From Gigantopelta aegis (taxonomy: Eukaryota; Mollusca; Gastropoda; Neomphalida; Peltospiridae): a stretch of 64,000 nt of DNA. The DNA lies in contig NC_054708.1 of the NCBI RefSeq assembly GCF_016097555.1, positions 24,730,343 to 24,794,342 on the forward strand. Reading direction: 5' to 3'. Below the pieces are notes generated by a model that did not search any database, had not been told where the DNA came from, and saw nothing but the letters and a program-made list of their open reading frames with translations. A program made the position numbers and the translations under genes. Shown piece after piece: positions 4,333 to 43,085 of this stretch. Position 1 is the first letter of the stretch, and every line of letters starts with the position of its first letter.

Positions 4333-4518
4333 GTGCGCACAATATTTCAGCTTGCGTAAATTGGCCGTCTTTTTTGCAGGTTACATATGTTTTGCCTTTT
4401 ATGTACTTGTATCCTTCACGACATTTGTAATAGAGTACCGACGGGTAGTGAGAGTGGTCCGTAGCATTGCGCAATGAGATAATGCCATACATAAAGGGTG
4501 GATCCTTGCAGGCAATGG
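4333..4518 (-). CDS. sushi exon, block 2 position 7
   Basis: 186 bp, phase 1-1, between an acceptor TTGTAATTTCAG and a donor GTAAGA. It reads [11 protein letters not shown], then [20 protein letters not shown] and ends ILCA. Four cysteines sit at sushi spacing. The tryptophan usual before the last cysteine is phenylalanine ([10 protein letters not shown]). Its closest relative in the window is the sushi at 18920-19105, which shares ATDH, YPSV and GYKYI/GYQYI. The good donor shows this is not the last exon. Confidence 0.88.

Positions 4519-43085: not shown

Follow-up and report, generated by a model that had tools for sequence, protein, structure and literature searches.

A kringle/sushi exon array predicted to encode the distal ectodomain of a giant LGR-type receptor in Gigantopelta aegis

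An array of kringle (K) and sushi (S) exons in Gigantopelta aegis is predicted, with good confidence from its sequence context, to encode the membrane-distal ectodomain of a very large G protein-coupled receptor (GPCR) of the GRL101/RXFP-like type C LGR kind. The array lies in a stretch of 64,000 nucleotides (C10:24730343-24794342), referred to here as the window, and a total of 1.149 Gb of the genome was searched. In the predicted order, the receptor would consist of two K-S-K-S-K-S-S blocks, a partial K-S-K, an LDLa domain, two EGF-like domains, a vWA domain, a C-type lectin domain, five LDLa domains and, finally, a further LDLa domain followed by LRRs and a 7TM part. The domain content, order and strand are directly apparent at the locus, the exons can be joined in phase, and kringles, vWA, lectin and 7TM parts occur together at most paralogous loci.

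The kringle/sushi array and its seven-exon blocks

The 14 exons of the array occupy 4.3-40.3 kb of the window on the minus strand and form the string K-S-K-S-K-S-S twice (Table 1). Profile HMMs were seeded with four kringle and four sushi exons of the window, such that eight of the 14 array exons are seeds and six are independent. A search of the window with these HMMs recovered all 14 minus-strand exons, each at the place given by the first-pass annotation, which bears out the doubled string proposed there.

Table 1. Exons of the kringle/sushi array and the rearranged stretch around its first kringle, in window coordinates
Feature	Position	Strand	Remark
Block 1 K1 (kringle)	40022..40259	-	5' part absent
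Block 1 S1 (sushi)	38126..38299	-	
Block 1 K2 (kringle)	34661..34933	-	
Block 1 S2 (sushi)	33827..33991	-	
Block 1 K3 (kringle)	30600..30875	-	
Block 1 S3 (sushi)	28844..29020	-	
Block 1 S4 (sushi)	18920..19105	-	
Block 2 K1 (kringle)	16516..16788	-	
Block 2 S1 (sushi)	14007..14186	-	
Block 2 K2 (kringle)	12163..12435	-	
Block 2 S2 (sushi)	11027..11200	-	
Block 2 K3 (kringle)	9962..10234	-	
Block 2 S3 (sushi)	7070..7249	-	
Block 2 S4 (sushi)	4333..4518	-	gene model goes on left of the window
K1 tandem rearrangement with GA/G microsatellites	39994..40667	-	recent; either truly broken or an error of the assembly

The array runs on past 4.3 kb. More specifically, same-strand K, S and K exons continue beyond the left edge of the window at C10:24723770, 24722119 and 24718988, so the suggested extension to the left revealed a third block, though a partial and more diverged one (K-S-K). 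Its last kringle resembles K2, with 46% identity to block-1 K2 and a UFBoot of 71 for a joint clade.

The identity of the domains was assessed with Pfam and the PDB. All six window kringles were listed in the genome search with PF00051 (best 150 of 159 candidates). On a joined model of the 17 K/S exons, Kringle was matched at E 2.1e-109 in 8/8 stretches and Sushi at E 7.2e-38, with five of the nine sushi stretches passing alone; across the genome, PF00084 mostly finds other sushi genes. A PDB search with one window kringle identified it as an ordinary kringle, with plasminogen as the best solved match. Pfam names both domains of what had been annotated as a kringle/sushi gene, but the array is most likely not a gene as a whole, since same-strand exons follow downstream.

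A phase-1 donor is found within the two best-ranked candidates for all 17 K/S exons of the window gene, 4 bases past the matched domain in kringle exons and 1-4 bases past it in sushi exons, and a phase-1 acceptor lies shortly before the domain in 16 of the 17, the damaged K1 being the exception; these sites were read off ranked candidate lists without a chance control.

The window also contains traces of mobile elements. Non-LTR retrotransposon endonuclease and reverse transcriptase ORFs lie at 19920-22226 (+) in the intron between S3 and S4 of block 1, and an open Tc1/Tc3-like transposase of 355 residues at 58116-59180 (+). Remnants were seen as well, Tc3-like at 36192-36725 and Mos1-like at 44034-44597. 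Upstream of the gene, two ORFs of 171 and 212 residues at 50906-51418 and 51843-52478 (-) had no Pfam match at E<=0.01.

The first kringle of block 1, previously placed at 40.0k, is present but is not a clean exon: it consists of rearranged partial copies and is devoid of the first cysteine and the splice acceptor, both of which are present in the paralogous genes A, B and D. The surrounding stretch (39994-40667) holds near-identical partial copies, 166 nt twice at 99% and 152 nt twice at 100%, in addition to GA/G runs. The window copy might accordingly be a decaying gene, in which a rearrangement within the GA repeats took the acceptor and first cysteine of K1. Besides the rearrangement itself, this would fit the nearby damage at C10:24.81 Mb, where an orphan vWA carries one stop and a tail carries two, and the split exons b2S1 and b2K3 of gene A. 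We nevertheless consider decay rather unlikely, given that reading frames stay open in the 16 remaining K/S exons and in every downstream exon of the model, that the codons of K1 are conserved (dN/dS 0.18-0.24 for window K1 against A, B and D), and that long G and GA runs are prone to errors in assemblies.

When all K/S exons of the array (eight kringle and nine sushi, counting those of the third block) were compared pairwise, all seven block-1/block-2 pairs were reciprocal best matches within the array, in agreement with the positional pairs that had been noted before. Identities amount to 53/78, 51/87 and 46/87 for the kringle pairs at 40.0k/16.5k, 34.7k/12.2k and 30.6k/10.0k, and to 23/55, 27/54, 17/56 and 28/58 for the sushi pairs at 38.1k/14.0k, 33.8k/11.0k, 28.8k/7.1k and 18.9k/4.3k. 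Trees of 23 kringle and 24 sushi exons from four genes, with split and half exons omitted, lead to the same picture. In IQ-TREE, six of the seven positions form clades (UFBoot 100 for K1, 92 for K2, 94 for K3, 61 for S1, 87 for S2 and 100 for S3); an S4 clade was not recovered there from the 24 sushi exons and is present in FastTree. Trees constrained to keep each block as a clade are worse by 110 log-likelihood units for the kringles and 73 for the sushi exons and are rejected by the AU test in IQ-TREE (p 1.6e-51 and 6.4e-57, respectively). The tree proposed as a check of the first-pass annotation thus pairs exons by position rather than by block, and its seven-exon block duplication is supported by the positional pairing, the trees and the same order in paralogues.

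Exons of the same block also group across genes in IQ-TREE, with block-1 exons of different genes forming clades at all seven positions (UFBoot 61-99) and block-2 exons at five of the seven, K1 and S2 being the exceptions. Because block-1 exons of different genes group together, the block duplication is most likely older than the gene copies, as far as the trees indicate; synonymous change between the blocks is saturated. In this scenario, a block of seven exons, all symmetric and of phase 1-1, would have been duplicated to enlarge the array before copies of the gene arose. Gene conversion between the blocks is able to make copies alike and could in principle have produced the positional pairing, and in FastTree the window block-1 K3 indeed groups with the block-2 K3 exons. 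However, intragenic conversion should make the two blocks of any one gene each other's closest relatives, and the across-gene clades of both blocks render this explanation highly improbable.

Equally remote is the idea that each of the two blocks is a tandem gene in its own right. It could draw on the 9.7 kb intron with its retrotransposon, yet this gap sits between S3 and S4 within block 1 and not between the blocks. Furthermore, gene B (C10:24608664-24648971, +) contains block 1, block 2 and the third block as a single string in unchanged order, with 15 of the 17 exons found and b1S1 and b1K2 not found when the 17-exon set was sought, and a locus 20 Mb away (C10:4.077-4.130 Mb) keeps the same order for the seven exons detected. 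Both speak against two genes for the two blocks, the outcome that had been named as refuting the duplication.

Downstream exons and the joined gene model

After the third K-S-K, the same strand carries LDLa, two EGF-like, vWA and C-type lectin exons, five LDLa exons and an LDLa-LRR-7TM tail; this downstream part of the model, third K-S-K included, extends from C10:24724038 down to 24679820. The tail ORF (C10:24686689-24688338) is assigned LDLa, LRR_8 and 7tm_1 by Pfam. More specifically, one long tail exon contains the LDLa domain, the LRRs and TM1-6, and a separate exon near 24679982 contains TM7 with the string NPFLY, which together with LDR and CWFP is found in the 7TM part. Among solved chains, the best relative of the tail is RXFP1 (PDB 7tmw, E 5.1e-54). 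The C-type lectin domain is spread over three exons and has a QPD string. A candidate lectin part at C10:24702378 was dropped, as it had no second match in the DNA examined, and was replaced by these three exons.

Joining the exons results in a model of 31 exons and 2,501 residues to the first stop, spanning C10:24770601-24679820 (91 kb); its 30 junctions were picked to fit phase, so that the continuity of the frame is partly by construction. Pfam assigns to it eight kringle and seven LDLa stretches, one lectin stretch, VWA, LRR_8 and 7tm_1, with nearly complete coverage of Lectin_C (4-107 of 107) and 7tm_1 (4-260 of 260). Pfam supports the LDLa, LRR, 7tm_1 and lectin assignments strongly, that of vWA moderately and those of the two EGF-like exons weakly; the latter two fall below the Pfam cut-offs singly and are absent from the listing for the joined model. 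For exon LDL1, the acceptor is weak and the donor, which lies outside the three best candidates, is assumed. The C-terminal end was set at the first stop after TM7. At the other end, neither a start codon nor a signal-peptide exon emerged when the region ahead of the first kringle was scanned twice in four copies, and a pairwise DNA comparison of this region in the four copies gave no common signal-peptide candidate.

A single transcript running from the K/S array to the 7TM part appears to be the best reading of these exons, because kringles co-occur with the vWA places and tails across the genome and because the two parts lie very close together in gene B. The PF00051 search yielded at least 126 kringle matches in the genome (best 150 of 159 candidates), the vWA search 11 places at 57% identity or more (the broken place at 4.18 Mb counted once), and the tail search at least nine places at 68% or more (best 79 of 270 candidates, C4022 counted once). 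A listed kringle match precedes nine of the 11 vWA places at a distance of up to 60 kb and in the same orientation; the two exceptions are 24809669 and C2504, the latter lying 305 bases from the start of its contig. The first lectin exon is located downstream of all 11, at 0.9-8.6 kb from start to start. For the nine closest tails (best 79 of 270 candidates), six have a kringle and six a vWA within 60 kb upstream, as opposed to none of six more distant tail matches (32-44%) with a listed kringle. Gene B leaves ~0.43 kb between the end of its last kringle (24648971) and the start of its first LDLa match (24649407).

These observations have to be weighed against the possibility that two neighbouring genes were duplicated together, one encoding a secreted kringle/sushi protein and the other an independent GPCR of GRL101-like type that carries the EGF, vWA, lectin and LDLa domains. 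The last kringle and the first LDLa of the window gene are 11.5 kb apart, a gap containing long ORFs, which counts against a single gene. The same holds for the DNA examined around two other loci: gene A gave no vWA or lectin match alongside its K/S exons, its three LDLa and its fragment of a tail, and gene B gave no tail match. Three of the nine closest tails (best 79 of 270) are without a listed kringle within 60 kb, and the same is true of two distant tails on C8, upstream of which weak lectin matches lie. Even so, the ~0.43 kb in gene B leaves little room for a 3' end, a promoter and a signal peptide, phase-1 sites are at hand on both sides of the junction, and order and strand are the same at nine of the 11 vWA places. 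Two co-duplicated neighbours are therefore unlikely in our judgement, and we retain the single transcript.

A gene family with constrained exons

The genome appears to carry a family of such genes. With eight array exons as query (best 73 of 367 candidates), matches were obtained in corresponding order at C10:4.08-4.13, 24.49-24.52, 24.61-24.65 and 24.85-24.88 Mb, and fewer exons were detected at C10:25.33-25.36 and 25.60-25.61 Mb and on several unplaced contigs. The number of blocks may differ between copies, some copies are damaged, and the unplaced contigs may represent haplotype copies. Other groups of kringles are located at C14:0.86-2.06 Mb, C4:77.5 Mb and C5:23-26 Mb, with no family vWA or tail listed nearby. 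The genome also contains five matches to the haemocyanin domain PF14830, typical of molluscs, which lends weak support to a molluscan source, while a search for the abalone lysin family, run without a positive control, gave no match.

To the right of the window, a vWA at C10:24809669 (+) and a tail at 24816774 (+) are 85% and 91% identical to those of the window gene, with stops in both and no listed kringle upstream on the plus strand. Set beside a gene B without a tail, they possibly reflect an inversion, a duplication or a misassembly. Gene B itself has a second, broken version of its last kringle and first LDLa (C10:24644502-24645291, +), which lies upstream of the intact ones and is probably a fresh small tandem duplication.

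The K/S exons are under purifying selection. Pooled over the shared K/S exons, dN/dS is 0.28-0.38 in five of six gene pairs and 0.66 for B/D, with a pooled dS of 0.12-0.65 between genes and only 0.12 for B/D. In some gene pairs, K3, S3 and S2 of block 2 evolve faster, up to a dN/dS of 0.97, and K3 and S3 are faster in several pairs. This pattern fits a constrained coding sequence with some relaxed or changing positions.

In the proposed receptor, the kringle, sushi, vWA and lectin modules would serve to capture some ligand or a surface. These additions to the core would lengthen the receptor and engage a partner, most likely through the lectin and vWA domains, and the LDLa-LRR-7TM part would turn capture into G-protein signalling by analogy with RXFP1/2, as is suggested by the core that it shares with them. 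From the tandem expansion and the uneven evolution of the exons, our guess is that variable targets such as microbes or cues are recognised. A lineage-specific family of giant LGR-type GPCRs, serving as a diversified recognition system for microbes, parasites or self with direct G-protein signalling, is a tentative extension of this proposal that we hold to be possible rather than probable; the duplicated kringle/sushi blocks would then sit atop a vWA-lectin-LDLa-LRR receptor.

Comparison with known receptors and kringle proteins

Secreted proteins of clotting, complement and the matrix are the best-known carriers of kringles and sushi domains. Plasminogen, HGF and apo(a) have the kringle in common with the Gigantopelta aegis model, which differs in having no protease domain. 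A secreted plasminogen-like protein was ruled out, as the 31-exon model contains no trypsin-like domain at E<=0.001 and its domains are interleaved, and a complement-like regulator of sushi domains alone was ruled out by the kringles that interleave with them. In lysine-binding kringles, an acidic pair before the WC has a role in the binding. An acidic-x-acidic pair at this place occurs in none of the eight kringles of the window gene and in one of 23 over four genes, and because the kringles are without it, plasminogen-like lysine binding would not be expected.

Kringles have also been reported on receptors of another class. Amphioxus Adhesion GPCRs are described with kringle N-termini and share kringle and C-type lectin modules on a GPCR with the present model (available text of PMC2246102), and the kringle is tabulated for the Adhesion family in the part consulted of a 2025 eLife paper. 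An Adhesion GPCR was ruled out here, given the 7tm_1 match and the absence of GPS, GAIN or 7tm_2 from the model at E<=0.001 (Pfam).

The assignment as a type C LGR seems most likely and draws on domain content and on the RXFP1 match, with GRL101 compared by description only. LDLa domains precede the LRRs (seven LDLa stretches and LRR_8), and the rhodopsin-class 7TM part is nearest the relaxin receptors, RXFP1 being the best match among solved chains. RXFP1 and RXFP2 share the LDLa-LRR-7TM core (PDB 7tmw; PMC4561518) and differ in having one LDLa before the LRRs, the other modules being absent from their description in the available text of PMC4561518. According to the same text, their LDLa module is needed for activation and may be a tethered ligand after hormone binding. 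Lymnaea GRL101, a type C2 LGR with twelve LDLa and six LRRs (PMC8286064), is similar in its many LDLa, its LRRs and a rhodopsin-class 7TM part related to the relaxin receptors (PMC8286064, PMC4079206); the word kringle does not occur in the available text of these two papers.

The closest parallel in layout comes from Biomphalaria, where a lectin likewise lies upstream of LDLa-LRR-7TM (Lectin_C 4-107/107 in our model). The available text of PMC12297450 describes SudRes2 of Biomphalaria sudanica as a cluster of GRL101-like GPCRs with LRR, LDL and C-type lectin domains, in a region associated with schistosome resistance. Both are tandem clusters of LGR-type GPCRs with LRR, LDLa and C-type lectin; the K/S blocks, the EGF-like domains and the vWA are additions of the Gigantopelta aegis gene, and neither kringle nor sushi occurs in the main text of PMC12297450. 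The two distant C8 tails, with a lectin and no listed kringle, resemble this Biomphalaria layout as described there. In the available text of the GRL101 literature examined, the sole occurrence of kringle is in PMC11521371 and is not about GRL101, and among the matches listed from open-licence literature there was no kringle-bearing LGR.

Relative to the literature examined, the design of an LGR bearing kringle and sushi domains is provisionally new. If true, 17 K/S modules on a rhodopsin-class GPCR would widen the known range of receptor ectodomains and would serve as a case study in how symmetric exons are duplicated block by block. As further-expanded relatives of the lectin-bearing receptors of Biomphalaria, the genes described here could help to test pathogen sensing by such receptors (cf. 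the available text of PMC12297450).
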